DNA from: Armatimonadia bacterium
GTDB taxonomy: Bacteria > Armatimonadota > Zipacnadia > UBA1398
Direction: 5' to 3'
NCBI GenBank assembly: GCA_014730065.1
Contig: WJIW01000191.1
Span: 1-35,646, forward strand
Length of the DNA stretch: 35,646 nt
This document shows, piece after piece, positions 12,092 to 34,985 of the stretch. The notes beneath the pieces are model-generated. The model saw nothing but the letters and a program-made list of their open reading frames with translations. It was not told the DNA's origin and did no database searches. Within the stretch, counting starts at the first letter, position 1, and the number at the start of each line of letters is the position of its first letter. The position numbers were made by a program, and so were the translations under genes.

Positions 12092-14721
12092 CGGACCCAC
12101 ACCTCCACGCCGACAGCTCCGCCCATGTGCGGCACTGAGGCACCGTCACCGGGTCCCAGGACGACTCCACCGTCGAGCTCGATCTCACCCGACGCGACCT
12201 CCAGGCACACCGCCTCGTCCTTCTGGGAGGCGATGTGCAGCAAGCGACGGCCGCCGGGCCGCACGTCGACCCCCAGCGGTCCCGACGGGCTGTCGACGCT
12301 GGCGCGGAGGGTGGAGCCGGGCGGGGGCGGCAGCGCCTCCACGTCCCAGACAAGGTCCAGCGAGGACGTGGACGATGGGAGCCGGCCCAAGACCAGGCGC
12401 GCCCTGGCGTCGCCCTGGACCACATCGATCTCGGCGGCCGATCCACCCGCTGATCGGATGCGCTGGGCCGCTGGCGCCCGGGCCTCGCGAGAGGTCGCCT
12501 GGGTCGTGGTGCCGCCGAAGGCGATGTTGCAGCCATCGGCCACGATGCACCGCACCCATACGCCCTCCCAGCCGCGAATGGTCTGGGTCTCCTGGTACCC
12601 GCCGCTGAGCGGATCGTAGCCGAAGAAGATGCTCCGCACCCAGCCGTTCTGCACCGCCTGGGAGAAGCTGGCCGAGGCGCCGGCTCGGTCGAAGCGCAGT
12701 GCGTTGGGTGACACGGTGCCGGCATATGGCAGCCCGATCAGGTTCCAGCCGGGCTCGAGGTGGACCCGGTACGTCTCCTCAAGGGTCAGGGCGTCGGCGT
12801 TGAACTCCACGGGCACCGAGCTCTCCGCCTTGAGCCAATACCCGCGGCCGGGCTCGATGGCCGGTAGGTGCGGGTAGAGACGGTACTTGTCCTCGGCCGC
12901 GAGCTGAGGGTCCCACGCGGCCAGGAGCACGTCCTCCCGGTCCAGGCCGAGCACTTCCGACTCGTCCAGGCCCACGGGCCAGCCGGGGAAGGACACTAGC
13001 ATCAGGCCCGACTGTGGCGGCACGAAGGTATGGGTAAGCTGGCCACGCTTCTCCATGGCGTCCACGATGGCGTAATCGAAGTACCCCACGTTGATCTGCC
13101 GCTCGATGGTCTCGCCCGACACGTCCTCGAAGCTGAGCCGCAGCTTGCCGGGGGACAGGAATCCGTCACCGACGTGGCCGCGGAAGGAGCCTTGCGTGTA
13201 CTCCAGCTCCTCGGCCTCGGCCTCGCCCACGGCCACGGTCAGCTTCCCGTCATCCCGGCCGTCGATAGCCCCATATAGGTTGATGCCTTGCGGGTCGGCG
13301 TTCAGGTCCAGGTCTTCGCGACGGGAGTTATAGGGGTACAGAATGTGCTGGACCATGGGCGGCAGGGCCAGGTCGATGGTGATCCGCTGCTGGCCCCCGA
13401 TGTTGAACAGGGAGCCCGAGTACTCCCCGATCCCCGCCGAGCCTCCCGACTCGGGAATGGGGATCTCATAGCCCTCCTGCACGAAGAGGGAGAACTGATG
13501 GGTGTAGTCCCAGAACTCGAGGGCGACCCGGCCACCCAGCCCCTCCTCCACGCCCTCGGGCGTTGTGGTGGTGTGGGTCACGAAGAGGGCCACGGCCTCG
13601 AAGGTGGGGATCATGCCGACGTACATGCGCTGACCCACGGTCAGGCTCGTATCCAGGGCATACTGAAGCCGGAACCAGTCGTAGAAGCTCCGGCCCTCCA
13701 CCGCGGGTACGATGGCGGCCATGATGGCCTTGAGGCGCGGCACGTCCCCCGCTACGTCGGGATCGGCATCGAAGGCCGCATAATAGGCCGAGTTGAAGTC
13801 GACCATGGCCAGGGGATCCTCCACCAGGAGCTTCATCCACGCGCCGCTGGATAGGGCTAGGCGGGTTACGATCAGACCCGGGAAGCCCGTCTCCCAGATG
13901 GAGTCATTGCCCAGCTCTGGGCGGTTCATCAACTCGTACAGGTTCAGGCTGTACTCGGACCGCTCCAGGGTGGGGTCCCAATCGGAGTAGACCGAGGCCA
14001 TCACCAGGTTGGCGACGGCAAGAACGTGGCCATCCTCCCAGGCATCGTACAGCAGCATGGCGTCATCGCGCATGGCGTGGAGCATGTGCCGGGTGAGGGC
14101 GAAAGCCGTGTTCCGGTCATTGTCCGAGAGGGGCGCGAGGAAGATGGTATCGGTGCCCGCATCGTAGACTCCCTCGGCGAAGTTCCGAAGGGCCGGGTCG
14201 AGCTCCACGGAGACCTGGTGAGCGAAGGCGGGGGCGCCGTAGAACTGCTTCACGATGGGATAGATCTGGTCGATCAGATCCTCGAGGAGCTCGGTATTCG
14301 CGCCGGAGAAGCCGGTCACTGAGAAGGTCAGCTCCCCGCCCGCCTGGCGAGCCCCGGCCTCAGGCACACTGGGGCGAAGCACCCGGCCCTCGCGGATCGG
14401 CACCGCCCGCCGGTTGGGCATGAACGCCGTCCCGGGGCTCTTGCGGGTGTGGCGGGCGAGCATCTCGGGGAACCGTCGGGCGGCGGCCAGGCGGTCCGAT
14501 CGGACGCCCGCCTGGGCGGTGCGGGCGGACAGAGCCGCTCTCATGTCGCCGGGCGCCTCCGAGCGCGGCTCGTAGAGCAGCGCGCCCTTGGGGCCCAGGG
14601 TCCGGGTGGCGAAGGGCGTGTTGTCGATGTTGGCGAAGGGGCGCGCCTCGATGGGCGGAGACGGCCCTGCCGAGGGCGCGCACCCGGCGCCCAGGGTGAG
14701 CAGCATCGAGGCTAGCGCCAA
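12088..14721 (-). CDS. Large lipoprotein with degenerate metallopeptidase-like domain and two WNLIGLP-type modules
   Basis: Encodes at least 877 residues. LTLGAGC is a good lipobox. TTG 14721 has no ribosome binding site and leaves no basic residues in the leader. In-frame codons upstream encode HLRPSHIIATAI, and a CTG at 14760 has GGGAG eight bases before it, so CTG may be the true start. Residues about 130-400 resemble a zinc metallopeptidase: ALTRHMLHAMRDD followed by LLYDAWEDGHVLA. Where HExxH is expected there is RHMLH, and the Glu is missing, while the downstream WEDG acidic site remains; hydrolytic activity is therefore doubtful. The C-terminal half has two copies of a module seen as LVSFPGW...GRGYWLKA and GWNLIGLPYA...WEGVWVR. 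Function is unknown; surface binding is likely. Confidence 0.8.
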   Translation of the reverse strand: MALASMLLTLGAGCAPSAGPSPPIEARPFANIDNTPFATRTLGPKGALLYEPRSEAPGDMRAALSARTAQAGVRSDRLAAARRFPEMLARHTRKSPGTAFMPNRRAVPIREGRVLRPSVPEAGARQAGGELTFSVTGFSGANTELLEDLIDQIYPIVKQFYGAPAFAHQVSVELDPALRNFAEGVYDAGTDTIFLAPLSDNDRNTAFALTRHMLHAMRDDAMLLYDAWEDGHVLAVANLVMASVYSDWDPTLERSEYSLNLYELMNRPELGNDSIWETGFPGLIVTRLALSSGAWMKLLVEDPLAMVDFNSAYYAAFDADPDVAGDVPRLKAIMAAIVPAVEGRSFYDWFRLQYALDTSLTVGQRMYVGMIPTFEAVALFVTHTTTTPEGVEEGLGGRVALEFWDYTHQFSLFVQEGYEIPIPESGGSAGIGEYSGSLFNIGGQQRITIDLALPPMVQHILYPYNSRREDLDLNADPQGINLYGAIDGRDDGKLTVAVGEAEAEELEYTQGSFRGHVGDGFLSPGKLRLSFEDVSGETIERQINVGYFDYAIVDAMEKRGQLTHTFVPPQSGLMLVSFPGWPVGLDESEVLGLDREDVLLAAWDPQLAAEDKYRLYPHLPAIEPGRGYWLKAESSVPVEFNADALTLEETYRVHLEPGWNLIGLPYAGTVSPNALRFDRAGASASFSQAVQNGWVRSIFFGYDPLSGGYQETQTIRGWEGVWVRCIVADGCNIAFGGTTTQATSREARAPAAQRIRSAGGSAAEIDVVQGDARARLVLGRLPSSTSSLDLVWDVEALPPPPGSTLRASVDSPSGPLGVDVRPGGRRLLHIASQKDEAVCLEVASGEIELDGGVVLGPGDGASVPHMGGAVGVEVWVR

Positions 14722-14817
14722 GATGGCCGTGGCGATGATATGGCTGGGCCGTAGATGCAGAACAACCGCTCCCGTCGGTGGCTCGTACTAGCGTATCAGA
14801 CGCTCCGAGGGGTTCTC

Positions 14818-16506
14818 ATGTCCCGAACTGTTGATTGCCGCGGCGATGGACGCGATCCTCTACACCGCTCGCCACAACTGCTCGCGGCCCTGCTGGCTCT
14901 GCTCCTGGTAGCGGGCCCCGCCGGTGCCCAGCGGGAGCTGCCCAGGCCATCGCCCGAGAACACCCTGAAGGTGTACCTCCTCGATCCGGGCCTGCTCAAC
15001 CCCGACCTGACGCTGGATGCCAAGGTGGACCGCGCTCGCGACCTACTGCGTCGCATCGATCCCGGGGGGTTGTACGTGGGGGTGGGCGTTGCCCTACCCT
15101 ATCGCGCCGCGGGCGAAGAGGCCTTCGAGGCCGCTTTCCGTACCCGTATCCCGATTGCCCTTCTCGGTGGCCCGACCACACATCATACCCACGACTGGCT
15201 GCCCGCGGAGACCGTCGCCTCGGATCTACGGAACGCCCAATGGCTCGCCGATGGCGCTCTTGGACTGGGGTCTGAGCGCGAGCGGCTCTGGGCGTGCGCC
15301 TCGGTGTACGCTTCGGAGATCGTCGCTCACCGAACCGCCGCATCGCGCGGCATGGCCGAGCGGGTGACGAAGATCGAAGCGAGCCATCCGGGGGTTGTCG
15401 ATCTGGTGGCCGGTCCCCTGGAGCACGGCCTATCCACGGCGGGGTACCCCGACCGGTACGCCGACTACTCGCCATGGACCGTCGCCGAGTTCCGGGACTG
15501 GCTAACCCATCGCGGCATCTATGGCCCGGATGGGTCCCGAGCCGGTGAAGGGTGGCCCGGCGGCGCCCATCTCGCCGATGACCCGTCGCCCGCTCGATCG
15601 GCCGGTGAGGGCCGGTCCTTCAACGAGGTGTTCGGCACGAGCTTCGAGTCGTGGCACCTGCGGATCCACGAGCCGACGCGCGGCGGGCCCATCGCCGATA
15701 CCTCCGTACTCTCTCCGGGACCCGGTGATGGCGGCTACCTACGCGGCGGGTTCGATGCCCCACGAGCTCCCAATGCCCTCTCACCACTGTGGGCGGCATG
15801 GACTCAGTTCCGGGCCGAGCTGGTCCGGCGCTGGGCCGAGGATCATCTGCCGGAGCTACGCAGCGCGCTTCCCCATGAGGTGAGTGCCGCCGCGGTGGTG
15901 CATCTCCCCGGCGACCCCGCTTGGGCCGCCCTCTCCGCGGGGGCTGTCGAGCCCGAGGGCGCCGATCTCGTCCTCTTCGATGGCCGGCCGGCGGACATCC
16001 TCCAGGCGGTCGCCGCACGCGACTCGGCCGTTCCCTGGGGCGCTATCGTCGATGTGCCGGTGCCCATGCCCGCCGACTCCTCAGCCCGCGGTTGGCTGGG
16101 TCCGCTGGTGGACCGGGGCGCCCGGGTCTTGGTGATCCGAGCCTGGGAGGATTCGTCCGGCGGGTACGGGGCGCTCGCGCTCTCGGATCTGGAGGCCGAG
16201 GTCGCCGGTTGGCTCGAGACGATGGATGACCGCCCTCGCGGCGCGAAGCCCGGCGAGCGGTTCGTCCCGCCGGCTGTCCGCGAGGTCGCCGTGGAGCAGC
16301 GGGAGGACGGCAACCGGGTGACATGGAGCACCCACCCCTTCGAGGGGATCGCCATCCAGTGGCGCGACTGGCAGCCATTCAGCGAGTTCGCCGTCTCCCG
16401 CACCCATCCCCAGCCTCTGCGGCTCGGGACCACTACCGACGCCCACTTCATCGACGCCGATCCCCCGCAAGGGGCGCGCTATGAAGTGCGCGCGCTCGTG
16501 CGCTAG
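14818..16506 (+). CDS. Secreted protein of unknown function, possibly TIM-barrel glycosidase-like with C-terminal FN3-like domain
   Basis: Encodes 562 residues. ATG 14818 has GAGG seven bases upstream; an in-frame ATG at 14755 would fall in the divergent promoter region and lengthen the leader unnaturally. The signal peptide ends at AGPAGA-Q. KVYLLDPGLLNPDLTLDAKVDRARDLLRRIDPGGLYVGVG and the later GVALPYRAAGEEAF suggest alternating strands and helices. DYSPWTVAEFRDWLTHRGIYGPDG recalls the segment found in GH42-like and related secreted barrels, where the host glycosidase examines a long substrate. No pair of catalytic Glu residues can be assigned. The last 85 or so residues (REVAVEQREDGNRVTW ... 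GARYEVRALVR) read as a fibronectin-III-like domain. The gene is divergent from the large lipoprotein and overlaps the PBP4-type gene at the stop (CTAG). Confidence 0.75.
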   Translation: MSRTVDCRGDGRDPLHRSPQLLAALLALLLVAGPAGAQRELPRPSPENTLKVYLLDPGLLNPDLTLDAKVDRARDLLRRIDPGGLYVGVGVALPYRAAGEEAFEAAFRTRIPIALLGGPTTHHTHDWLPAETVASDLRNAQWLADGALGLGSERERLWACASVYASEIVAHRTAASRGMAERVTKIEASHPGVVDLVAGPLEHGLSTAGYPDRYADYSPWTVAEFRDWLTHRGIYGPDGSRAGEGWPGGAHLADDPSPARSAGEGRSFNEVFGTSFESWHLRIHEPTRGGPIADTSVLSPGPGDGGYLRGGFDAPRAPNALSPLWAAWTQFRAELVRRWAEDHLPELRSALPHEVSAAAVVHLPGDPAWAALSAGAVEPEGADLVLFDGRPADILQAVAARDSAVPWGAIVDVPVPMPADSSARGWLGPLVDRGARVLVIRAWEDSSGGYGALALSDLEAEVAGWLETMDDRPRGAKPGERFVPPAVREVAVEQREDGNRVTWSTHPFEGIAIQWRDWQPFSEFAVSRTHPQPLRLGTTTDAHFIDADPPQGARYEVRALVR

Positions 16507-18096: not shown

Positions 18097-19002
18097 ATGC
18101 CCCCATCTTCGATGAGCCTGCGATGCCTGGCCGGGCTGGCCCTGGTGATGGTCGCCATGCCCGCACGGGCCGAGCCCGTCGAGCTGACGTACCTGCCCGA
18201 GGTGGGCAGTACGCGGGACTATTCTGTCAAGGTCCAGGGCGAGGTGCGAGTGGGAGAGTCGGGCGCTATGCCTCTGGACTGCTCGGTGCCCGTCCGGGTT
18301 CATGTCGCCGAGCGAGTTGAGGACGAGCCCCTGACCCGCCTGCGAATGGTGCTGGGCAAGGCTACCGTGGTGCTGGACGGCCAGCGCCTGCCGTGGCGGC
18401 TTGGCGGAGCGGGTTACACGGCGGAGCGGGACCTGCGGGGCCGGCTCGTGGGCGTGAGCAGCCGAGCTCCGGCCATGGCGGCCCGTACCGGCGACTTCGC
18501 CGCCCTGTTCCACGACGTACGCTGTGGACTCGTGCTGCCCGAGGAGCCCGTCGAGGTTGGGGACACTTGGACGGTGCACATCGAGGACGAGCCGTTCATC
18601 TTCGAGCCCCAACGAGCCGAGCGACGGGATCGCTCGGTGAAGGGCGAGCTGGTATGCGAGCTGACGGACTTCCGCCGGGTCGGCGAGGTGCCGGTGGCGG
18701 AGATCCACCTGAAGCTCAACCTCCGCACGAAGAGCGAGGCGGGCGCCGTAACCCTAAGGCAAGAGATGGACCTGGCCCTCGATGCCCGAACGGGCATGGT
18801 CATCCGCGGCGAGGGCGACCTGAGCCTGGCGCTGACGGCGCCATCGGGCACCCGCACCGTCTTCGAGAACCTGGAGGTTCAGATCCGCCGGGCCGTTGAT
18901 GAGCCCGGCGAGGAGGAGGCCCCGGACTCGCCCGAAGATACCGATGGCGGCGATCCCGAGCAGGCCGGAACGCACACACGGGCCGCGGGAACTAAGCAAT
19001 GA
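18097..19002 (+). CDS. Secreted protein of unknown function upstream of the serine protease
   Basis: Encodes 301 residues. ATG 18097 has GGAG seven bases upstream. The signal peptide ends at MPARA-E. The mature protein alternates beta strands: ELTYLPEVGSTRDYSVKVQGEVRV, a central LPEEPVEVGDTWTVHIEDEP, and a late LRQEMDLALDARTGMVIRGEGDLSLAL. This pattern (a GDTW strand in the middle and an internal-reference strand ending G-x-L at the end) is common in secreted beta-barrel or lipocalin-like proteins of unknown role in uncultured bacteria. The last 40 residues are acidic, Pro-rich and probably disordered. Its stop overlaps a possible ATG of the next gene in an ATGA, so it is probably in one operon with the protease and perhaps MurJ. 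I assign no activity. Confidence 0.78.
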   Translation: MPPSSMSLRCLAGLALVMVAMPARAEPVELTYLPEVGSTRDYSVKVQGEVRVGESGAMPLDCSVPVRVHVAERVEDEPLTRLRMVLGKATVVLDGQRLPWRLGGAGYTAERDLRGRLVGVSSRAPAMAARTGDFAALFHDVRCGLVLPEEPVEVGDTWTVHIEDEPFIFEPQRAERRDRSVKGELVCELTDFRRVGEVPVAEIHLKLNLRTKSEAGAVTLRQEMDLALDARTGMVIRGEGDLSLALTAPSGTRTVFENLEVQIRRAVDEPGEEEAPDSPEDTDGGDPEQAGTHTRAAGTKQ

Positions 19003-19016
19003 CGGGGAGGTTTCTC

Positions 19017-20114
19017 ATGGCCACCAGATGGACGCTGGCCCTCATGGGGCTGGCGATGCTATGCGCGATGCAGGCCCCCGCCCTGGCCGATCTGGACAGG
19101 GATACGGTGGATCGCATCAAGGACGCGACGGTGTACATAGACGTGACGAACCGGACCGAGGATGGGGTCGAGGACGGCTCCACGGGCTCGGGATTCGTCT
19201 ATGACCCCCGGGGGCTGGTGATGACGAACCAGCATGTCATCGATCCCCGGATCGAAGTGAGCCCGAACCGCTATGTGGAGGCCACGGAGCAGGAGGTGGT
19301 GGTCACATTCCACCGGGCCACCCCGCTGGAGATGTCTTACCCGGCCACGGTGGAGAGAGCCCATGGCGCCGCCGATCTGGCCGTCCTCAAGCTGCCCGAG
19401 GGCAACTACCCTTCACTGGAGCTGGGAGACTCCACCGAGGTCTTCGAGACCCAGACCGTCTACGCCGCCGGACACCCTCTGGGGCTGGACGAGATCTCCA
19501 TCCGCACGGGGACCATCACCTCCAAGCGCACCTTCGATGACCTGCCTTACCTGGAGCATTCGGTGAACGTGGAGCACGGGAACTCGGGCGGCCCGGTGTT
19601 CGACTCCGACGGCCGGGTGGTGGGCGTGGTGTGCTTCACCCTCAGCGCGGCCGAGCAGAACACCAACTTCGCCATCCCCTCCCAGACCCTGGAGCGCTTC
19701 CTCCAAGGGACGCTCCCCGAGCCTCAGCTTCAGGGCGGCTCCGACCGGGCGTTCCTCCAGGCCCTGCTCGATGGCACGGAGCTGACCTTCGAGGAGGCCG
19801 AAGGCGGGCTGTACCTGGTGCCCTTCGAGAATGACGTGAACGTCGGCGTCAGCGCATCGGAGGACTGGGTCCTGGTGCAGATCTACCTGGGCACGATCCA
19901 GGGCACGCCCGAGGAGGTGGCCTATATCCATGAGCAGCTTCTTCGGGCCAACTTCGACTACTACATCGGGAAGTTCGGCCTGGACGAGGACGGCGACCTG
20001 TGGGTCGAGCATCACCTCTCGCGAACCGACGTGGGACCCGAGGAGCTGGACGAATGCGTCCGGCTGCTGGCCCGCCTCGGCATCATGTGGCGCGATGGCA
20101 CACTGCTTCAATGA
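19017..20114 (+). CDS. Exported trypsin-like serine protease fused to a YbjN/CesT-like C-terminal domain
   Basis: Encodes 365 residues. ATG 19017 is preferred because GGGGAGG lies seven bases upstream; the ATG at 18999 overlaps the previous stop but lacks a site. The signal peptide ends at APALA-D. Residues 30-220 are a chymotrypsin-fold domain of the DegP/HtrA (S1C) type, with catalytic His73 (MTNQHVI), Asp120 (AADLAVLKL) and Ser190 (GNSGGPVF). No PDZ domain follows. Instead residues 235-365 (DGTELTFEEAEGGLYLVPF ... ANFDYYIGKFGLDEDGDLWVEHHL ... ELDECVRLLARL) have the strand-helix layout of YbjN-like proteins, which share the type III secretion chaperone fold. The C-terminal domain may bind substrates or regulate the protease. 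The protease assignment is firm; the C-terminal one is moderately firm. Confidence 0.88.
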   Translation: MATRWTLALMGLAMLCAMQAPALADLDRDTVDRIKDATVYIDVTNRTEDGVEDGSTGSGFVYDPRGLVMTNQHVIDPRIEVSPNRYVEATEQEVVVTFHRATPLEMSYPATVERAHGAADLAVLKLPEGNYPSLELGDSTEVFETQTVYAAGHPLGLDEISIRTGTITSKRTFDDLPYLEHSVNVEHGNSGGPVFDSDGRVVGVVCFTLSAAEQNTNFAIPSQTLERFLQGTLPEPQLQGGSDRAFLQALLDGTELTFEEAEGGLYLVPFENDVNVGVSASEDWVLVQIYLGTIQGTPEEVAYIHEQLLRANFDYYIGKFGLDEDGDLWVEHHLSRTDVGPEELDECVRLLARLGIMWRDGTLLQ

Positions 20115-21817: not shown

Positions 21818-24800
21818 CTAAACCATCTCCATCTCGATGGTGACCTCGGTGCCAAGACCGGCGCCGGGGCTGTGGATACTCAAGCTGCCGCCGGGTATCG
21901 CTCGCAGGATGTCTCGGGCATTGGCCAGACCGGTGCCGCGTCCCCTGCCCTTAGTGCTCACAACAGCACCCGACTGTAGCTGGTGTAACAGGTGCACCGG
22001 AATGCCCGGACCGGTGTCCCGTACGGTGAACCGGGCCATTCCGTCCTCGGCGCTAGTCAAAATGGTGATGATGCGCTCTCCGCTTGGGTGAGCGCCTTCG
22101 TCGTCGCCGAAAGCCTCGACGGCATTGCGTACGATGGAGCTGAGGATGTCGATGACCAAGTCGGGATCGGCACAGACCCTGGCGGTTCGGGCGCCCGCAT
22201 GCTCCAGCCGGATCTCGGCGCCCCGTCCTCGGGCCGCGGCGTCCATCTCGTACGCCACGGCTCGCGCGATGTTGCCTACGTCGTACCGAACGAGAACGGC
22301 CCGTAGCCGGCTCAGCAGGCCATCATCCCCAGCCAGGAGGCCATGGAGGCCATGGAGCTGTGATTCCGCCATGGCCACCAGCTCATCGGGCGGAGGGCTG
22401 CCCGACACCTCGTACTCTTCCCACCTTCCACCCGTGCGAAGCACGTCGTCAGCTCGGGCGACGACGGCGCGAGTCATCTCCAGCAGGTCAGTGACCAGGC
22501 CAGTGAGCCGCGCTGTGGGCAGGCGGGTGGCGGCCCTCTCCGCGCCGATCAAGGGCGCCGTCAGCTCGCGAATCTCAACCGCCAGCTCCAGGGCGCGGCT
22601 GGAGTGGCGAGAGAGGGCCGTCAGGTTCTGAGGCTCCAAGCAGTAACTCACCGCCTCCCTGTCCGGGCCTTCGGCCCCCGGCGTGGGGAGGATCGTTGCG
22701 GTGTTCTTCAGGGCATGCACCGATCCGTACAGCTCGTCCAAGAGAAGCAGCGCGCGCTTCAGCACCCCCGGCTCCCATCCGAGGGAGGCAGCTCGGCGGG
22801 CCGCGGCGAGAAGTGACGTCCACTGCTTAACCCGCGGCCACGCCGCCATGAGCGCGACAGAGGCGATGGCGGCCGCGATGCCGGCGAGGAGCGTCCACCG
22901 AGTCAGCCGCTGGCGGTGGATCCGGTCGATCGCCGTGGGGATGGAGGCGATGGGGTCGCCCTCGGGTATGCGGGGCCGGACCAAGTAGACGGTGCCGCCG
23001 GAGTAGTAGGCCACATCGCGCTCCGACTCACCCCACCACACCAAGGCCTCCGCACCGTGGGCAAGAGGGGCCATCTGGCCCGAGCTTGGCTGTACTAGGG
23101 TCACCTCGTAGAGTCCCGACACGGGCCCGTAGGGTGCCGGCGGTGCTTTCTCGTGGTCACCCACGGTGCGGCGAAGCGTGACCATGGTCAGGCCGCGAGG
23201 CGACCAGCTCGGCTGGAACAGGCCCTGCTGCTGATCGACCTCGCTCTTCCATAGGTGCCTCCCCGACGGATCGGACAGGTACAATCCCGAGCGGCTCACG
23301 CAGAGGGAGACCGGTGCGAGGGGATCGGCATAGGCTCCGCCCCGGGCCGAGCCACCCCAAGGGTGCCAGCGCCTGCTCAGTGGTGCGTCGCTGAGGAAAA
23401 ACACACTGCATGAGAAGGCGATCGTGCAGCCATCGGGTGTCCAGGAGGCTCCGCTCACCAGCGGGGACATGGGCCTCCCCACCACATTCAGCGGTGGGCC
23501 CCACATCCGCCCAACGGCCGCCCATGCATCCAGCATCGCGCCGTCGCCGGTGATGCAGACCGCGTCGCCACTGTCCCGATGGTGGATCCAAAGGTCGCGG
23601 CGAGGAGGGAGGCGCAAGTCTCCGGCGCCCGTCTCCCGTACGAAGGCAATCATGGTCCCATCGGGCGACCACAGGGGGTCACTATCGATGCCCTCGCCCT
23701 CGGTCACCCGATGGATCGGGCCATCGGGCAGGGATTTGATGAACAGGTCGCCACTGATGCACACAGCGACCTCCCGCTCGTCGGGCGACGGCGCGGCGTC
23801 AACTAGGCCGGGCGCGGACAGAACGGTGGTCTGGGAGAAGTCGGGGGCACGGGCCATGCGAACCTCACTCATGTCGCCCCTTCGTCCCATCACCGCCAGC
23901 GTCTCGCCGCTGGACGACCAGCTCGCCGTGGAGCCTGGCCCGGTGTCCGGTAGAGGCGTCTCTGTACCGCCATCCAGATCGGCAACCGCCAGTCCCTCGC
24001 GACGCCGCAGCACGAGGTAGCGGCCGCCCGGTGACCAGGCAACGGGATCACCCGTCAGGCCAGTCACGAGAGGCACTGGATCATCGGCGCGCTCGCCCAT
24101 GAGATCGAGGGCCTCCAGCTCCATCAGGCGAGTTAGCCGGGCGGTCCCGGTAACGGGGGTGTACGCGCACAGTGTCTCCAGATACCCGTCGGAGTCGGGA
24201 TCGGCCGGTACCCATGCGCTGGGCATGGCGTCGCCCAGGTCGATGGGGTTGACCCGGCGAGAGGGGTAGAGGTCGACGACGAAGGCCTCGTCACCGCCCT
24301 GGGCCATGATCTCATGGGCCCCATCCCCATCGAGGTCAGCGATGGCTCTGAGGTCTGTGTAGCGGCGCCCCAAAGGAATGTCATCCTCCAGGGTCAGGTG
24401 CTCATCGAAGACCAGAACCCGTCCCATGGAGCCACCGACGATCTCCAGGACCCCATCACCGTCCACGTCGCCGACCACGATGGGGTCGCTCATGGGGACG
24501 TCCAGGATGCGGTCACGCAAGGTGCGGCCCGTGGCGGGATCGAGGATGCTGAGCCGGGCCCCAGCCTCCCCCGTGATGCCGCTTGTGGAGGAGCTGAGGC
24601 ACACCAGCTCCATGCGTCCGTCCTGTCCGAGGATGTCGCATGGGAGGGCCCGGCAGTACCAGCCATAGCGCTCGTCAGGCCGGGGGGCACCTTCGGGTCG
24701 GTCCGGCTCGATGCACCAGATCTCCCTGCCCCGGCTGTCCAGCAGCAGCAGATAGACGTGCAGATCGTCCCGCGTCACCATCCGGCCCTTGGCATCGGGG

Positions 24801-25666
24801 ACCTCGGCGAAGTACCTGTTGCCATGAGCGTTGCCTGCGATGAGTAGCTCCAGACCCGGCGCATCGGTCAGATCGACGGGCACCACGTACGGGTGTAGGG
24901 GGTGAATGCGCGTCCAGTCCCGCTCCCAGGTGACGGTGTCGATGGCCGCGATATGTCGCTCAAGGGCCCGGTGCCCCGGGCCTCCGGGCGGGGGAGTGGT
25001 GGCGACGGCGATGATCAGCTCCGCGTTGCCATCGTCATCGATGTCGGCACAGCCCGTCGGGCGGAAGACGTTCAGCTCCTCACCGGGCACCGCTGGGCGA
25101 TCCACGGCCTGGCGGATGACGCGATCCCCGTCACCATCGACGTTGATCACATGAATGGCCCGCGCGCCTTCGCTTCTCCCCTCGGGGGTCAGCGGGTCAC
25201 GCTTCACTGCGTGGGTGGCGGCGATGATCTCCAGGGCGGGGTCGTTGTCCACATCGCCCAGGATCACCGTCCCGACCTGGTGGGGTAGAGTACGACTCCA
25301 CCGGACCTTACCGGCCGCGCTGTAGGCCTTCAGCTCGCGGCCCGTGCTCAGTACGACCTCACGCTCGCCGTCACCGTCCACATCGCCCACGAGGGGATTG
25401 TCGCCCTCCAGCACCGCCGAGAACCGCATGCCCACCGAGGAGCCAACGGCCACAGGTGGCCTTGGGAACGCCGGCAAGCCGTAGGGCGCAAAGGAGGGGT
25501 TGAGCCAGAGGCCATCGCTCATCTCGGGACAAGGGGGATGCCACTGGTCGGCGAGCTCCGCCGGAGCGATCCCACTGGCGACCAGAAAGGCCAGGGCGGT
25601 CAGCACCCCGGTGCTTCCCAGTGCCGTTTGCAGGCGGGCGTGACGCGAAAGATGGCTTGGGCCCAC
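21818..25666 (-). CDS. Membrane sensor-kinase-like protein with FG-GAP and PD40 beta-propeller exterior and histidine-kinase ATPase domain
   Basis: Encodes 1282 residues. The start is GTG 25666, with AGGA five bases upstream and a signal/anchor helix at about 12-30; the open frame continues upstream but is antisense to the M42 gene and lacks coding character. Residues 85-500 hold about six FG-GAP/VCBS-type repeats (GDVDGDGEREVV, GDVDNDPALEII, DIDDDGNAELII, GDVDGDGVLEIV, DLDGDGAHEIM, DPDSDGYLET). Residues 535-900 hold about seven PD40/TolB-like blades (AWSPGGRYLVL, LWSPDGTMIAFV, SWTPDGCTIAF and others). A membrane helix spans about 920-942. Inside, VHALKNTATIL places His984 in an H-x-L-K-N phosphoacceptor-like motif. 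The ATPase has the N-box Asn1181 (VRNAVEAF), G1 DTGPGIP (1217) and G2 GRGTGLANA. No response regulator is nearby. Its ligand is unknown. Confidence 0.85.
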   Translation of the reverse strand: MGPSHLSRHARLQTALGSTGVLTALAFLVASGIAPAELADQWHPPCPEMSDGLWLNPSFAPYGLPAFPRPPVAVGSSVGMRFSAVLEGDNPLVGDVDGDGEREVVLSTGRELKAYSAAGKVRWSRTLPHQVGTVILGDVDNDPALEIIAATHAVKRDPLTPEGRSEGARAIHVINVDGDGDRVIRQAVDRPAVPGEELNVFRPTGCADIDDDGNAELIIAVATTPPPGGPGHRALERHIAAIDTVTWERDWTRIHPLHPYVVPVDLTDAPGLELLIAGNAHGNRYFAEVPDAKGRMVTRDDLHVYLLLLDSRGREIWCIEPDRPEGAPRPDERYGWYCRALPCDILGQDGRMELVCLSSSTSGITGEAGARLSILDPATGRTLRDRILDVPMSDPIVVGDVDGDGVLEIVGGSMGRVLVFDEHLTLEDDIPLGRRYTDLRAIADLDGDGAHEIMAQGGDEAFVVDLYPSRRVNPIDLGDAMPSAWVPADPDSDGYLETLCAYTPVTGTARLTRLMELEALDLMGERADDPVPLVTGLTGDPVAWSPGGRYLVLRRREGLAVADLDGGTETPLPDTGPGSTASWSSSGETLAVMGRRGDMSEVRMARAPDFSQTTVLSAPGLVDAAPSPDEREVAVCISGDLFIKSLPDGPIHRVTEGEGIDSDPLWSPDGTMIAFVRETGAGDLRLPPRRDLWIHHRDSGDAVCITGDGAMLDAWAAVGRMWGPPLNVVGRPMSPLVSGASWTPDGCTIAFSCSVFFLSDAPLSRRWHPWGGSARGGAYADPLAPVSLCVSRSGLYLSDPSGRHLWKSEVDQQQGLFQPSWSPRGLTMVTLRRTVGDHEKAPPAPYGPVSGLYEVTLVQPSSGQMAPLAHGAEALVWWGESERDVAYYSGGTVYLVRPRIPEGDPIASIPTAIDRIHRQRLTRWTLLAGIAAAIASVALMAAWPRVKQWTSLLAAARRAASLGWEPGVLKRALLLLDELYGSVHALKNTATILPTPGAEGPDREAVSYCLEPQNLTALSRHSSRALELAVEIRELTAPLIGAERAATRLPTARLTGLVTDLLEMTRAVVARADDVLRTGGRWEEYEVSGSPPPDELVAMAESQLHGLHGLLAGDDGLLSRLRAVLVRYDVGNIARAVAYEMDAAARGRGAEIRLEHAGARTARVCADPDLVIDILSSIVRNAVEAFGDDEGAHPSGERIITILTSAEDGMARFTVRDTGPGIPVHLLHQLQSGAVVSTKGRGRGTGLANARDILRAIPGGSLSIHSPGAGLGTEVTIEMEMV

Positions 25667-25754
25667 GTTGATCCTGTCCCCCCGGACCGCGTTGCCGGCC
25701 GCGCACGGCGGCCTTGAGTGATCTTCGGCAACTCCCATCGGAATGCCTGCGTCC

Positions 25755-27178: not shown

Positions 27179-30100
27179 ATGCTCAGACGCAGGCTGCGCC
27201 AACGGGATCTGGCCATCGGAGGGCTGTTGGGGGTTGCGGCCGTCGCCGTCCTTCTGATCGCCAACCTGGGCAACTCCTCCGATAGCGTCATCGCCGCCGC
27301 CGACCCAGCGACCCTGGCGATCACCGCCCAGGACGGCGAGCCGGTCCAGGCGCTGTCGGCCATCGACGATGGGCCTGGGCAAGGCGAAGTGCCCGACGGC
27401 GACCTGGAAGTCGTCTTCCACCGGCCCACCTCCGAGGCACCGTACCACAACCAGATCCAAGTGGGCTTCGATGCGCCCCTGATCCCGCTCTCAAGCATCG
27501 ACGATGAGAGCCGCCAAGAGGCCCTGTCCCACTTCAGCCTCAACCCGCCGGCCCCCGGCACCTTCCGGTTCGTCGGCCCACAAGCGGTGGTGTTCTCGCC
27601 CGAGACCACCTTCCCGCCGGCCACCCGCTACACGGTGACCATCTCCGAGGGCCTGACCGATGTCCATGGCCGCCAACTCGCCGAGGCCTTCACCTGGCAG
27701 TTCCATACGGCCATGCTGCACCTCAGCTTCCCCGATCGGCGGAACTCCGATGGCGAGAACCTGGACCTGGAGCCCGAGCTGGTCCTGGAGAGCAGTGGCG
27801 CGCTCGATCTGGGCTCACTCCGGGAGCGCATCAGCCTCGTGCGGGTGACGGACGATGATGGCACCGAGCCCGTGGACGTCCGGTGGACCGTCAAGGCCGA
27901 CGCCGATAACCCGCCGGCCGTCCAAGAACCTGGTACCTATCGCAGGGACTACGTCTACCACTTGGAGCCCACTCAAGTGCTGGAGAAGGCGACCGACTAC
28001 CGGATTCGCATTGCCGCCGGAGTGCGGCCCGACCATCCGGGTGAGCCAACAGGCAGCGGTACCACCTTCGACTTCAGCACCTACGGCCCCCTCGCGTTCG
28101 AGTTTGACACGGACAAGAACGGGGGCCGTTGGCATAAGGATGAGTACTTCATCCGGCCCACCACCGACCTGGACAAGGACACCCTCGAGGGCGAGATCCT
28201 TCTCGACCCGCCCATTGAGGGCGAACCGGTTTGGAGCCATGGCCACAGTAGCCTGCTGTACCTCGCCGATGGCGAGCTGCGCCCCGACACTGAGTACACG
28301 GTGACCGTGGGTACCGGCGTTCGAGACGTGCACGGCCAGCGTCTATCCGAGCCATGGACCCACACCTTCCGTACATCACACCTCCGAACCCGCATCCAGG
28401 TCGACCAGGGCCTCCAGCTTGTGACGCCGCGCACGGAGGCCCTTCTGCCCTTCCGCGCCGTGAACCCCGGCGGCGTGTCGGTGAGTCTGCTTCCGGTACC
28501 GGCCGAGCGCTTCGCCGAGTGGGCCCTGGGCCCCGACATGCACCGCACGTCGGAGATCATGGAGCAAGGCGCCGCCCGCGTGCGGCAGTTCGTCGAGGAG
28601 TACGATGAAGACGCCGTCGAAGTGCGGGACGTCCCCTTCGGGCGAGTCCTCAACGACGCCGGACGGGGGCTGGTGGTCTTCGACCTGGAAGCCAGTCGCC
28701 GGGTGCCCAGCGGCTCGCGGCCGGTGAGGGGCGCGGGCGCCATTCTCCGCACCAACTTGGCCCTTCATGCCCGCATGCTCCCCTCGGAGCTGCACGTCAT
28801 CGCCACCCATCTGACCGACGGCTCCGCCGCCTCGGGCTGCGATGTGGAGGTCTACTACGATCCCGAGGACGAGGGCGACGCCGAGTTGATCGCCACCGGC
28901 CGCACCGACGGCGACGGCTGGCTGAAGATCCCCGCCGAGGAGCTTGGGGTGCGGGCCACTGGCGAGAGCTTGCTTAGCTCCCGGCCGGAGGAAGCCGCGA
29001 TCGTGGTATCCGACGGTGATGACTTCGCCTTCCTATGCGCCAGCGGGCCGCTGCGGACCCGGGTCGGGGGGTACTACACGTGGGAGTCCTCCGAGCCACT
29101 GGGTCTGGGCGACATCTTCAGTGACCGGCAGCTCTACCAGCCGGGCGATGACGTGTCGCTCAAGGGCGTCCTCCGGGTCCGCCGGGGCGGGCTCATCGAG
29201 ACGCCAGATGCCATGCCCCTGGACGTGACCCTGGAGACGCCCACAGGCGTCGAGCGCGACCTCGGGCAAGTGACCACCGATGAGTACGGGTGCTTCTCCT
29301 TAGAGGTCACGCCCGAGCCCGGCGACCCACTGGGCTACTACGACGTCGTTGCGCGCAACGAGTCCACCGGCGTGTCCATTACCGGCAGCTTCCGACGGGC
29401 CGACTTCAACCCACCCCGCTACAAGACGGACCTCAGCACCGAGCAATCCGTCTACACCGTCGGTGAGCGGATCAATATGGAGCTTCGCTCCGAGTACCTC
29501 TTCGGGGCCCCGCTGGCCGGCGGAGGAGGGCAGTTCCGGGTCAACATCCGAGGCTCGAGCTTCCGGCCCGACGGCTGGCCCGGGTTCCAGTTCTCCATTC
29601 CCTCGTGGATCGCCGATGAGCTGAGCGGACGCGAGGCCCCCGAGAAGACCCTCGTGGATGAGACCCGGGAGCTGGACGATGACGGCTTCGCGTCGGTGTC
29701 CGTGCCCGTGGTCGCCGAGGACGTGCCGGTCACCATGGCCTACGAGTTGTCGGTGGGAGCCAGCGACGTATCAGGCCAGACCGTGGGTGATGCCAAGACG
29801 GTCACGGTCCTGCCCCATGGCCGGATTACGGGGGTTCGCCTTGGCTCGGGCTTCGTCAGCGCTGGCTCTCCATGCACCGCCCAGGTCATCGCGGTCGACC
29901 CCCAGGGCGAGGCCCTGAGCGGTGTGGCTCTGGAAGTGGAGCTGCTCTCGCTGGATTGGGTCGAGAAGGAGATCGAGGACGAGGACCGCGTCTACACCGA
30001 GTGGGTGCTGGAGCCCGAGGTCGTCGCCACCGAGCGCGTGCGCAGCGACGACGAGGCCGTAACCGTCGAGCTTACTCCCTCTTCGGCGGGCAGCCACCTG

Positions 30101-32947
30101 GTGGTGGCGAGGCTTGCGGGCGTTGAGGATCCCGGAACCGAGGGCGCGGCATGGCTCTACGTGACCGGTACCGACATCTCCGAGGGCAAGCCCGGTATCG
30201 GACTGGACATCTACGTCGATCGCGATGAGTACCAGGTCGGCGACGAGGTGCAGGTCGCCATCGAGTCACCCTTCGATGAGGCCCGGCTCCTGCTGAGCGT
30301 GGAGCGGGAGAAGGTCTTCGAGCAGCAGTCCGAGGTGGTTGGTAAGGGCATCGCGACCTACAGTTTCACGATCACCGACGAGATGATCCCCAACCTGTAC
30401 GTCCATGCGATGCTCACCGAGATGGGTCCCGAGGACGGCAACCTCTTCGGGGACCCCGACAGCACCCCGTACCGCCGGGGCAGTGAGGAAGTCAGCGTGT
30501 CTCGGGACAGCCACCGGCTCGATGTCGAGGTGCTGCCCCATGACGACGAGTGCCGCCCGGGGGACACGACCACCGTGGACTTCCGTGTCGAGGATCACCG
30601 CGCGCGCCCGGCGCCTTCGCAGCTCACCGTCATGGTCGTCGATGAGGCGATCCTCCAGATGAACGGCTACCGCCCGCCGGACCTGGTCCGCTGGATCTTC
30701 CGACACCGGGGGCACAGCCTGCACATGCTCGACAATCGACCGTGGGTCGTCCACGCCGAGGAGCACCTCAAGCCGCCGCCCAAGGGCTGGGGATATGATG
30801 GCGGCCCGGGCGGCGCCGGTACGCCCGGCACCTACCTGCGCGAGGACTTCGAGCGGCTCGCCTACTTCAACGCCGACCTGCGCACCGACTCCCAAGGCCA
30901 CGCCTCGTGCGAGTTCGAGCTGCCCGACAGCCTGACCACATGGCGAGTCCTGGCCGTGGCGGTGGGCCGGGAGAACGACTTCGGCCAGGGTGACAACACC
31001 TTCGTCGTCAACCAGCCGCTGATGCTCAACGGCCTGCTGCCCCGGTTCGCCCGGGTCGATGATGAGATCACAGCGGGGGTCTCCATCAACAACCAGACTG
31101 GCGGGCCGGGCCATGCCACGGTCCAGCTCACAATGCCCAAGGGCGAGGAGCTGCTGGAAGGCGACAGCGCGGAAGATACCGTGGGGATCGCGCCCAACCG
31201 AACGGCGGCGGTGCGCTTCCCCCACGTCGCCCGGGGCATGGGCGAAGCGGCGCTGGAGTTCGAGTGCGTGTTCGAGGGCGATGGCATCCGCGAGGTGGAC
31301 CGTCTGCGACTGCCCCTGATCGTCGAGGAGCCGGCGTTCCTGGAGACGGTGGCGGTGGCGACCGAGATAGGCAATGCCCGCACCTTCCCCATCGAGCTGA
31401 GTGACCTCATGCGCCAGGACGTGGGCGCGGTCAACGTATCCCTCAGCTCCACCGCCTTCGGCAACCTGGCGCCCGAGATCGAGTACCTCATCCGCTACCC
31501 TTACGGCTGCGCCGAGCAGGTGGGCTCCATCGTCTATGGCCTCCTCGCCGCCGAGGAGCCGATGCGCCGGTACGGATTCGAGGTGGAGCCTGAGGAGCCG
31601 CTGGCCGACATGGTTCAGGCGGGGATCAGCGACATCTTGGCCTGCCAGACCTATAGTGGCGGCTTCAGCTACTGGGCGGGATCGGACCATGCGAGCCGGT
31701 GGCTGTCCTGTTACATTGCGGTGGTTCTCGCCGAGGCACGGGACCACGGGTACTCGGTGCCCGAGGACGCTATGGAACAACTCGCGGGCTACCTCGAGAG
31801 CACTCACGTCCATGACCTACCGCGGCGTAGCCTGCTTCACTTCCGGTGCCAGCAGGCAGTCGCGCTTTCGGCCCTGGGCCATGAGTACACGGAGCATTAC
31901 GGCACCCTGGTCCAAGGGAGCGACGAGCTCTCGCTCATCGACCGGATGCGTCTGGCCCGGGTACTTTCGCGAAGCCCCGAGTGGCGCGGGGAGGCCACGG
32001 AGCTGTACGAGGACGTGCAGGAGCGGAGCTGGATGACCGCGCGGGGAGTGCAGATCCAGGACTCCGGCGTATCCTCGCTCTTCGGGTTCTACTCCGACAG
32101 CACTGCCGCGCTGACCGCCGAGGGTCTACAGCTCAGCCTGCTTATGGAGCCCGCCGGCGAGCGGCCCGCCATGATGGCCAGCTCCCTGGTGAGCCGCCGG
32201 GAGCATCGCCGATACCGCACCACCTACGGATCGGCCCAGGTGCTTCACGCGCTTTCCGAGTACATGGAAGCCCGGGAGGCCACCCCGCCCGACTTCACCG
32301 CACTGCTGGAGCTGGATGGGGCCGAGGAGACCTCCATGGCTTTCCAGGGCTTCGAGCTGGGCCGCCGTACCTATGCCGTCCCGCTATCCGAGCTGGGCCT
32401 CGGCACCCACCAGCTCACGATCCACAAGAACGGAGCGGGCAGCCTGTACTCCACCGTGGAGCTGGAGTACGCCCCCGCCGGCGAGACCGACCCGCGGTGC
32501 GAGGGCTTCTTCATCGAGCGCACCATGACCAATATGCGCACAGGCCAGGTCATCGATGGCGTGGATGATGAGATTCTCGTCGGCGACATGGTGCGGGTCG
32601 AGCTGATGGTGAACAGCCCGCAGGATGCGCCCCAGGTCGTGGTGGAGTCGCCGGTGCCCGCCGGTCTTGAGCCCGTCGACACGAGCTTCGCCACCACGCC
32701 CCAGTGGGCCGGGGAGGGGACTTCCAGCACGTGGCGCTGGGATCCCTTCAACCGGATCGAGCGGCACAAGGACCACATCGCCCTCTTCGCCCAGGCCGTG
32801 CCCCCGGGGGTGTACTCCCACGAGTACGTGCTCCAGGCGACCAACCCCGGCGAGTTCTCATACCCCGCCACTCGTATCTACCGGATGTACGAGCCCGAGG
32901 AGTACGGCGCCACGGGCTCGAGCCGGGTGCGCGTCGGGGAGAGTTAG
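27179..32947 (+). CDS. Bacterial alpha-2-macroglobulin (thioester protease trap)
   Basis: Encodes 1922 residues. ATG 27179 follows AAGGGG. Bacterial alpha-2-macroglobulins guard the periplasm: a protease cuts the bait region and is covalently trapped by the activated thioester. A membrane anchor occupies about residues 11-30, with no lipobox, unlike the E. coli lipoprotein. Big_5/MG-like beta domains follow (VQVGFDAPL, YTVTISEGLTDVHG). A macroglobulin signature MVVDEAILQMNGYRPPD precedes a Gly/Pro-rich putative bait segment (KPPPKGWGYDGGPGG, about 1195-1220). PDSLTTWRVLAVA comes next, and the thioester motif Cys1444-Ala-Glu-Gln1447 in YPYGCAEQ is intact. The (alpha/alpha)6 thioester domain continues to about 1750, then a final MG10-like domain. 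It is one base upstream of the PBP1C gene, the classic pairing for this family. Confidence 0.93.
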   Translation: MLRRRLRQRDLAIGGLLGVAAVAVLLIANLGNSSDSVIAAADPATLAITAQDGEPVQALSAIDDGPGQGEVPDGDLEVVFHRPTSEAPYHNQIQVGFDAPLIPLSSIDDESRQEALSHFSLNPPAPGTFRFVGPQAVVFSPETTFPPATRYTVTISEGLTDVHGRQLAEAFTWQFHTAMLHLSFPDRRNSDGENLDLEPELVLESSGALDLGSLRERISLVRVTDDDGTEPVDVRWTVKADADNPPAVQEPGTYRRDYVYHLEPTQVLEKATDYRIRIAAGVRPDHPGEPTGSGTTFDFSTYGPLAFEFDTDKNGGRWHKDEYFIRPTTDLDKDTLEGEILLDPPIEGEPVWSHGHSSLLYLADGELRPDTEYTVTVGTGVRDVHGQRLSEPWTHTFRTSHLRTRIQVDQGLQLVTPRTEALLPFRAVNPGGVSVSLLPVPAERFAEWALGPDMHRTSEIMEQGAARVRQFVEEYDEDAVEVRDVPFGRVLNDAGRGLVVFDLEASRRVPSGSRPVRGAGAILRTNLALHARMLPSELHVIATHLTDGSAASGCDVEVYYDPEDEGDAELIATGRTDGDGWLKIPAEELGVRATGESLLSSRPEEAAIVVSDGDDFAFLCASGPLRTRVGGYYTWESSEPLGLGDIFSDRQLYQPGDDVSLKGVLRVRRGGLIETPDAMPLDVTLETPTGVERDLGQVTTDEYGCFSLEVTPEPGDPLGYYDVVARNESTGVSITGSFRRADFNPPRYKTDLSTEQSVYTVGERINMELRSEYLFGAPLAGGGGQFRVNIRGSSFRPDGWPGFQFSIPSWIADELSGREAPEKTLVDETRELDDDGFASVSVPVVAEDVPVTMAYELSVGASDVSGQTVGDAKTVTVLPHGRITGVRLGSGFVSAGSPCTAQVIAVDPQGEALSGVALEVELLSLDWVEKEIEDEDRVYTEWVLEPEVVATERVRSDDEAVTVELTPSSAGSHLVVARLAGVEDPGTEGAAWLYVTGTDISEGKPGIGLDIYVDRDEYQVGDEVQVAIESPFDEARLLLSVEREKVFEQQSEVVGKGIATYSFTITDEMIPNLYVHAMLTEMGPEDGNLFGDPDSTPYRRGSEEVSVSRDSHRLDVEVLPHDDECRPGDTTTVDFRVEDHRARPAPSQLTVMVVDEAILQMNGYRPPDLVRWIFRHRGHSLHMLDNRPWVVHAEEHLKPPPKGWGYDGGPGGAGTPGTYLREDFERLAYFNADLRTDSQGHASCEFELPDSLTTWRVLAVAVGRENDFGQGDNTFVVNQPLMLNGLLPRFARVDDEITAGVSINNQTGGPGHATVQLTMPKGEELLEGDSAEDTVGIAPNRTAAVRFPHVARGMGEAALEFECVFEGDGIREVDRLRLPLIVEEPAFLETVAVATEIGNARTFPIELSDLMRQDVGAVNVSLSSTAFGNLAPEIEYLIRYPYGCAEQVGSIVYGLLAAEEPMRRYGFEVEPEEPLADMVQAGISDILACQTYSGGFSYWAGSDHASRWLSCYIAVVLAEARDHGYSVPEDAMEQLAGYLESTHVHDLPRRSLLHFRCQQAVALSALGHEYTEHYGTLVQGSDELSLIDRMRLARVLSRSPEWRGEATELYEDVQERSWMTARGVQIQDSGVSSLFGFYSDSTAALTAEGLQLSLLMEPAGERPAMMASSLVSRREHRRYRTTYGSAQVLHALSEYMEAREATPPDFTALLELDGAEETSMAFQGFELGRRTYAVPLSELGLGTHQLTIHKNGAGSLYSTVELEYAPAGETDPRCEGFFIERTMTNMRTGQVIDGVDDEILVGDMVRVELMVNSPQDAPQVVVESPVPAGLEPVDTSFATTPQWAGEGTSSTWRWDPFNRIERHKDHIALFAQAVPPGVYSHEYVLQATNPGEFSYPATRIYRMYEPEEYGATGSSRVRVGES

Positions 32948-32948
32948 G

Positions 32949-34985
32949 ATGCGGCCCCGTGATCCTTCGGAGACCTCGAAGACACGGGGCCGACGCTCCT
33001 CCTGGCGCCGGTTGATGAAGTGGATCCTGGGACTCGTCGCTGCCCTCGGCCTGTCGGTGCTCGCGCTGTGGGTGTCGGCGCGCATGGACCCCCTCACCGC
33101 CGGCGATCTGGAGTCCGAGGGCGGGCGGCTCGTCCATTTCACCGACCGCTCGGGCGAGCCCATCGGGAGTGTCTTGGTCGATGGCGAGCGTGCCTGCCAG
33201 CCCGTGACCCTCGACCAAGTCCCGGCCCATCTCACCCAGGCCCTCATCGCCGCCGAGGATCAACGCTTCCGCGAGCACGGCGGCGTGGACGCGAGGGCTT
33301 TGGGGCGTGCGGCGCTCCAGAACCTGAAGGCCCGATCGATCGTTTCCGGGGGCTCGACCCTGACCATGCAGCTCGCCCGCATGCGGAAACCCAAGCCCCG
33401 CACCCTCTGGAACAAGATCGTCGAGGCACGCACGGCCTGGCGGCTCGAAGCCGGGATGAGCAAGGACGAGATCTTGGAGACGTATCTCAACCGAGCACCC
33501 ATGGGGAGCAATCTGGTGGGTGTGGGGATCGGCGCCGAGGTCCACTTCGGCCGCGACATGTCCGAGCTGAACCTCGGCCAATGCGCCGCCCTAGCCGCCA
33601 TCCCCCAGGATCCCGAGGCGAATCTCCCCGGCACCCCTCACGGCGAGGAGCGCCGCTCGTACATCCTGGAGCGAATGGTCGAGGACGGCTACATCACCGC
33701 CGAGGAGGGCGAGCTGGCAGCGAAGAGCCGCGTCGAGGCCCGCGGTGACCACGCGCCATTGGCAGCGTACCACCTGATGTTCCGGGCCATCGAGGACGCG
33801 CCCGCGGACGCGGTCGCTCTCGAGCTGACCATCGACAGCGACGTCCAGCGGATGGTCGCCGGACAGGTACGCCGCATCGTGGGTGAGCTGGAGGCCCAGG
33901 GCGCCACCAACGCCGCGGCCCTCGTTGTCGACAACGACACGGCCGAGGCGCTGGCGTACGTGGGCTCGGCGGAGTACTTCGATGACGAGGCGGGGCGGGT
34001 CGACGGCGTGCGGGCTCTTCGGCAGCCGGGGTCGACCCTGAAGCCCTTCGTATACGCCTTGGCGCTGGAGTCCGGCTACACCCTCGCCACGCCCCTGCCC
34101 GACGTTCCCGCCTCCTACCCCATGGCGCCGGGCCAGTGGTACGAGCCCGAGAACTACTCCACTACCTTCCACGGCCCGGTACGGCTCCGGGCCGCCCTGG
34201 CGAACTCCTACAACCTGCCCGCCTGTCATGTGGCGGTGAAGGTCGGTGTGCCCGAGGTGCTGCGGACCCTCCATCGAGCGGGCTTCGAGTCCCTGGACCA
34301 AGACGCCGACTACTACGGGCTCGGGCTCGTCCTCGGAGGCGGCGAGGTGACCCTGTACGAGCTGGTGCGAGCCTACTCCGCCGTGGCAAGGGGAGGCGAG
34401 CTGAGGCCGCTGTTTGCCTGGTCATCTGTGGAGGGGGAACCGGGCGATGACTCCGCGGAGCGGTCCCAGGTATGCGATCCCCTCACCGCGTACCTCATCA
34501 CCGACGCGCTCTCCGACTCGGCGGCAAGGGCGCCCTCCTTCGGCGCTTCGTCGCCCCTCGATCTGCCCTTTCCCTGCGCGGCGAAGACGGGCACCTCATC
34601 GGGGCACCGGGACAACTGGTGCATCGGCTACACCCCCGACTACACCGTGGGCGTGTGGGTGGGGGACTTCCGGGGCGAGCCCATGCACGATGTATCGGGC
34701 ATCTCCGGCGCGGGGCCTCTCTTCGGCCGCATCATGCTCCATCTCTACCAGGGGCACGCCGAGCCCGAGCCGCCCGAGCGGCCCAGCGGGATCGTGGAGC
34801 GCCCCGTCTGCAGCCTGTCGGGAGCCGCGCCCGGTCCTTACTGTCCTCACCATGTTCGGGAGCTGCTTAGGCGCGACAGCCTTGCCGGCTACGAGTCGAG
34901 CACCTGCGACTGGCACCGGCTTGGCCCGGACGGAGAGATCCGCGCCGTGGTGCCCGAGGAGTTCCGGGTTGAGGGCGGGGCGTGA
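32949..34985 (+). CDS. pbpC: Penicillin-binding protein 1C, bifunctional GT51 glycosyltransferase/transpeptidase
   Basis: Encodes 678 residues. ATG 32949 has GGAG seven bases upstream and lies one base after the alpha-2-macroglobulin stop. A single membrane helix (about 19-39, KWILGLVAALGLSVLALWV) anchors it. The GT51 domain has AAEDQRF with catalytic Glu103, then GGSTLTMQLARM and the second acidic region ETYLNRAPMGSNLVG. The transpeptidase has Ser362-Thr-Leu-Lys365 (nucleophile Ser362), Ser420-Tyr-Asn422 and Lys546-Thr-Gly548. The tail GIVERPVCSLSGAAPGPYCPHH, with later Cys and DWH, is the PBP1C-type Cys-rich end. The protein stops there, so the C-terminal BiPBP_C domain of E. coli PBP1C (about 770 residues) is absent. 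Its role is probably repair of the peptidoglycan breach where alpha-2-macroglobulin acts. Confidence 0.93.
   Translation: MRPRDPSETSKTRGRRSSWRRLMKWILGLVAALGLSVLALWVSARMDPLTAGDLESEGGRLVHFTDRSGEPIGSVLVDGERACQPVTLDQVPAHLTQALIAAEDQRFREHGGVDARALGRAALQNLKARSIVSGGSTLTMQLARMRKPKPRTLWNKIVEARTAWRLEAGMSKDEILETYLNRAPMGSNLVGVGIGAEVHFGRDMSELNLGQCAALAAIPQDPEANLPGTPHGEERRSYILERMVEDGYITAEEGELAAKSRVEARGDHAPLAAYHLMFRAIEDAPADAVALELTIDSDVQRMVAGQVRRIVGELEAQGATNAAALVVDNDTAEALAYVGSAEYFDDEAGRVDGVRALRQPGSTLKPFVYALALESGYTLATPLPDVPASYPMAPGQWYEPENYSTTFHGPVRLRAALANSYNLPACHVAVKVGVPEVLRTLHRAGFESLDQDADYYGLGLVLGGGEVTLYELVRAYSAVARGGELRPLFAWSSVEGEPGDDSAERSQVCDPLTAYLITDALSDSAARAPSFGASSPLDLPFPCAAKTGTSSGHRDNWCIGYTPDYTVGVWVGDFRGEPMHDVSGISGAGPLFGRIMLHLYQGHAEPEPPERPSGIVERPVCSLSGAAPGPYCPHHVRELLRRDSLAGYESSTCDWHRLGPDGEIRAVVPEEFRVEGGA

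Follow-up and report, generated by a model that had tools for sequence, protein, structure and literature searches.

A predicted sensor histidine kinase with two extracytoplasmic propellers of different classes in an Armatimonadia bacterium

In a 35,646-nucleotide stretch of DNA from an Armatimonadia bacterium (contig WJIW01000191.1, hereafter the window), a gene on the minus strand (21818..25666, 1282 aa, GTG start) appears to encode a non-hybrid transmembrane sensor histidine kinase that carries two propellers of different classes outside the membrane. This reading is supported by domain profiles, by conserved catalytic boxes, by two full-length homologues (L038 and L039) and by the fold of the catalytic domain. 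Taken as a whole, the best explanation, to which we assign a probability of roughly 0.6, is a polymer-sensing kinase that would use His984 as its acceptor and a regulator built of receiver, AAA and winged-helix parts (REC-AAA-winged-helix) as its partner; within it, we infer the ligand, the phosphotransfer and the target genes.

The reading frame is open from the GTG at 25666 down to 21818, and 5 nt before the GTG stands AGGA, a possible ribosome binding site judging by sequence (25672..25675, minus strand). The product runs from a signal peptide through an FG-GAP propeller, a PD40/TolB propeller and a transmembrane helix to an H984-x-L-K-N motif and a HATPase_c domain, with Pfam matches above the cut-offs for FG-GAP_3 (2.4e-8, three stretches), PD40 (3.1e-8) and HATPase_c (1.3e-12). 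The last of these is also the protein's last domain, the C-terminus carrying neither a receiver nor an HTH domain in Pfam. Both membrane helices of the original prediction are present. The first, then described as a signal or anchor helix (residues 12-40; 25547..25633, minus strand), has the look of a signal peptide with a cleavage site (APAELA/DQ), not of an anchor, given its hydrophobicity and the similar N-termini of L038 and L039; the second (residues 925-943; 22838..22894, minus strand) is the sole other membrane helix by hydrophobicity. With one cleaved helix and one retained, about 885 residues would therefore be extracytoplasmic, close to the 890 or so first estimated.

Searching for the same domain order across genomes, as had been proposed, returned two full-length relatives at about 30% identity: a paralogue in the same genome, G000 (contig C112, L038:116-3859, 30%), and a homologue in G032, a genome from a different family (L039:404-4180, 29%). 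This genome encodes many PD40 and FG-GAP proteins, and a chance fusion or an assembly artefact might be imagined to have joined propeller genes to a kinase gene; yet the complete order is kept in three full-length copies on three contigs from two genomes of different families, making such an origin vanishingly improbable, and the conservation of the whole order at this level of identity rules out an assembly fusion. A C-terminal fragment of the kinase occurs in genome G066. Because a profile search found the acceptor segment of the kinase in only 3 of 291 Armatimonadota genomes, and not in G001, the sole other genome of the same genus among those searched, the gene is, across these sequences, rare and patchy, and its family a small one in a phylum that has received little study. 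Synteny with G001 (S13 peptidase, trypsin-like peptidase, MurJ) ends right after MurJ, some 600 bp from the contig end. Wider scans of genome contigs yielded only a fragment from Armatimonadetes CG06 and a Streptomyces match of generic kinase type, a plasmid search nothing but generic catalytic-domain matches, and a rough motif screen of long ORFs in the examined loci no further propeller-kinase fusions outside this family.

The first propeller (residues 90-530; 24077..25399, minus strand) is assigned to the FG-GAP/VCBS class by Pfam, by PDB profile matches to the PL11 proteins YesW and YesX and by motif counts. Five D-x-[DN]-x-[DN]-G loops were observed in residues 41-560 against 0.08 expected, a number equalled in none of 20000 shuffles, and the repeated D-x-[DN]-x-D-G blades by which FG-GAP/VCBS propellers are recognised are present in the window protein. 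Of the six FG-GAP repeats originally counted, the repeats are real but the number changes: to the five canonical loops are added three degenerate D-x-D-x-D-G-type loops, at 138, 265 and 344, and these together with the loop spacing suggest about eight blades rather than six. A profile of the three homologous ectodomains, compared with the PDB, matched PL11 rhamnogalacturonan lyases over its first half. YesW is itself an eight-bladed propeller with D-x-[DN]-x-D-G calcium blades (PMC3123361); YesW and YesX share such blades with the kinase and are reached by its ectodomain profile, but they are enzymes rather than receptors, and the match spans just part of the kinase propeller. Close connections link the VCBS, FG-GAP and RGL11 propellers, and carbohydrates are the typical target of the VCBS-like ones (PMC8023676, PMC9218822).

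For the second propeller (residues 535-905; 22952..24064, minus strand), assignment to the PD40/TolB class draws on Pfam, a PDB profile match to TolB, TIGR02800 and blade motifs. The predicted seven or so PD40/TolB-like blades can each be located by a W-S-P-D-G-type motif, near residues 541, 580, 622, 664, 740, 819 and 875; one stretch alone passes the Pfam PD40 cut-off, the others being weaker, and PD40 in L038 and L039 falls just under it. Over its second half the ectodomain profile matched TolB/DPPIV which, set beside the PL11 match in the first, points to two propeller classes in tandem. TolB of the Tol-Pal system has the PD40 propeller in common with this half of the ectodomain, but is a soluble periplasmic protein with an extra N-terminal domain, and the NCBIfam TolB model (TIGR02800) matches the kinase over residues 534-676 with 43 bits, far under the equivalog cut-off of 343. 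A blade profile built from the window protein recovers that protein by construction, so that its matches to L038 and L039 are the informative ones. The structure prediction that had been advised as a check gave a divided answer: a two-sequence model agrees with the expected catalytic-domain fold, whereas the propeller rings were unconfirmed, being unreadable in a single-sequence AlphaFold2 model of the ectodomain (pLDDT 36, about 75 residues confident), and the propeller fold consequently rests on sequence profiles.

Inside the cell, the HATPase_c catalytic domain (residues 1167-1280; 21827..22168, minus strand) contains the predicted N, G1 and G2 boxes (N1181, D1217-x-G-x-G and G2), and its two-sequence model lies close to solved kinases (3a0t, TM 0.81 by target). 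His984 (22715..22717, minus strand), in the H-x-L-K-N motif, is the likely phospho-acceptor: none of H984, L986, K987 and N988 varies among the three complete homologues, which share no cytoplasmic His other than H984. Homologues without the His and the kinase boxes would have indicated a non-kinase protein, but motif, N box and G boxes are invariant among them. The surrounding helical acceptor/dimerisation segment (residues 955-1125; 22292..22804, minus strand) is less conventional. No acceptor (DHp) family in Pfam matches it at His984, even at E 10, HisKA_2 and HWE included, so that of the profiles suggested at the outset FG-GAP, PD40 and HATPase_c were recovered and HisKA was not. Position H+1 is occupied by A, N and A in the three homologues rather than by an acidic residue, and the distance from the His to the N-box Asn is 197, 179 and 202 residues, compared with 110-119 in 14 canonical kinases taken from the loci examined in this analysis. 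In HxxKN-box kinases (HWE/HisKA_2, PrsK) a K stands at H+3 and an N at H+4, as they do here, but the PrsK profile matches the catalytic domain alone of the window kinase.

It is improbable, though these oddities invite the thought, that the protein lacks kinase activity and is instead a pseudokinase, or a receptor acting only as a phosphatase, whose ATPase domain is a remnant. Such a receptor would fit the non-acidic H+1 position, an acceptor region outside all known Pfam families and the shortened ATP lid of L038; yet both the window protein and L039 retain intact N, G1 and G2 boxes, H-x-L-K-N has stayed invariant despite an overall identity of 30%, and a regulator is linked to the kinase in G032. 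An active kinase is the reading we prefer. In a model of low confidence in this region, the His helix and a long helix are followed by a second hairpin that has no conserved His and then by the catalytic domain, and the odd spacing could reflect either an extended insertion or, as in CheA, a His module of its own. If H984 is the acceptor, its unusual place implies a different layout of the kinase core. We entertain, as a speculative possibility well short of even odds, a separate Armatimonadota kinase family with two propeller classes outside, a new phospho-acceptor type inside and a dedicated REC-degenerate-AAA-winged-helix regulator, in which the His would sit on an upstream helical pair, the hairpin on the catalytic side would lack a conserved His and labour would be divided as in CheA.

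As first noted, the kinase has no adjacent response regulator in the window, and the suggested search for a distant partner by co-occurrence led, through G032, to a likely partner class. There, the gene for a REC-AAA regulator precedes that of the kinase in the same orientation, the gap between them being 100 bp; by sequence, the regulator's AAA part is without GAFTGA and the Walker A motif is degenerate in its relatives, and the C-terminus has a weak winged-helix likeness (Trans_reg_C, E 0.06, in two of the three regulators). Of the regulator's two relatives in G000, the first is encoded on C339, and the second seems to straddle two contigs, with one part at the end of C435 and the rest at the start of C648 (L051:8624-8986 and L052:1-1185), an arrangement that would join these two contigs. 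When the AAA and C-terminal parts were made into a profile and run on the 291 genomes, only these three regulators exceeded 600 bits, with at most 65 bits elsewhere, and no full-length regulator of this type was found in the other 289 genomes, G066 with its kinase fragment among them. Complete kinases and regulators number two and two in G000, and one and one in G032; linkage in the latter and the matching counts, across as few as two informative genomes, suggest that they form pairs, and the pair here is open to direct testing. In G000 the regulators are linked to neither kinase, which, like the non-acidic H+1 residue, the unmatched acceptor family and the unusual His to N-box spacing, counts against the best explanation, as do the G066 kinase fragment with no such regulator in its genome and the shortened ATP lid of L038. 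Also near the G032 regulator are a protein combining an AAA lid with a weak cyclase domain (L039:5913-7052) and a receiver-cyclase protein (L039:12924-14000).

The kinase gene converges on murJ, whose stop lies at 21815, and on its other side is transcribed divergently from an M42-peptidase-like gene with a likely start near 25912. A trypsin-like protease fused to a YbjN-like domain (18999-20114, plus strand) adjoins MurJ and the S13 carboxypeptidase and is kept in G001. On the other side (27179-34985, plus strand), a bacterial alpha-2-macroglobulin gene (1922 aa), absent from G001, is followed by a transglycosylase/transpeptidase PBP gene in a yfhM-pbpC-like arrangement. Two large ORFs of 877 aa (minus strand) and 583 aa (plus strand) at 12088-16506 are without a Pfam match, and GH5 cellulase-like and GH9-like genes lie side by side at 6432-9703 (plus strand), about 12-19 kb from the kinase. 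The G032 kinase-regulator pair is itself near a GH2-like gene and a CBM_4_9 stretch.

These surroundings bear on what the kinase most likely senses, which we take to be an extracytoplasmic polymer. Polysaccharide is favoured because of the propeller classes, the GH2-like gene and CBM_4_9 stretch near the G032 pair and the cellulase-like genes in the window, although in this phylum glycoside hydrolase genes nearby may be no more than background; an envelope signal is possible because of the TolB likeness and the wall-related neighbours. On the latter grounds the protein could be an envelope-stress sensor whose TolB-like propeller binds a lipoprotein or a peptidoglycan-linked partner instead of a glycan nutrient, and whose kinase part regulates genes for the wall or envelope. 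Among structural classes the second propeller fits TolB best, and MurJ, the S13 PBP, the alpha-2-macroglobulin and the transglycosylase/transpeptidase PBP are all nearby; but gene order past MurJ is not kept in the same genus, the G032 homologue is accompanied by carbohydrate genes instead and the first propeller bears a likeness to glycan-active propellers, leaving this a competitor that we consider unlikely. Under the polymer-sensing reading, the signal peptide would be cleaved and both propellers would then lie outside the cytoplasmic membrane, the calcium-loop FG-GAP/PL11-like one and, nearest the membrane, the TolB-like one. A bound polymer, for which a polysaccharide or a component of the envelope is most likely, would shift the single transmembrane helix and alter autophosphorylation of His984 by the HATPase domain, and the phosphoryl group would pass to the REC-AAA-winged-helix regulator, whose gene adjoins that of the kinase in a relative and is unlinked to it here.

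Two propellers on one kinase had been thought an unfamiliar architecture, and this holds in part: a pair of FG-GAP/VCBS and TolB class on one kinase was not found in the literature searched, where no paper combined FG-GAP, histidine kinase and beta-propeller, and the three that mention both FG-GAP and histidine kinase do so once or twice each and, by title and abstract, treat other subjects, but double-propeller kinases themselves are already known. The nearest known system is the Bacteroidetes HTCS, a hybrid kinase that bears a YYY domain and two Reg_prop propellers of seven blades each (PMC3243724, citing Menke 2010), and glycan sensing by HTCS with this double Reg_prop propeller has been demonstrated (PMC3243724). 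The general plan is common to both systems, in which a transmembrane histidine kinase carries a large periplasmic sensor made of two propellers. They differ in that HTCS combine Reg_prop with YYY and carry a receiver and HTH on the same chain, whereas the window kinase combines FG-GAP with PD40, ends with HATPase_c, matches neither Reg_prop, YYY nor receiver in Pfam and has an acceptor region unlike that of HTCS. What is new here is thus the other propeller classes, the non-hybrid layout and the unusual acceptor region, and double-propeller kinase sensing extends past the Bacteroidetes Reg_prop HTCS to another phylum and to other classes of propeller.
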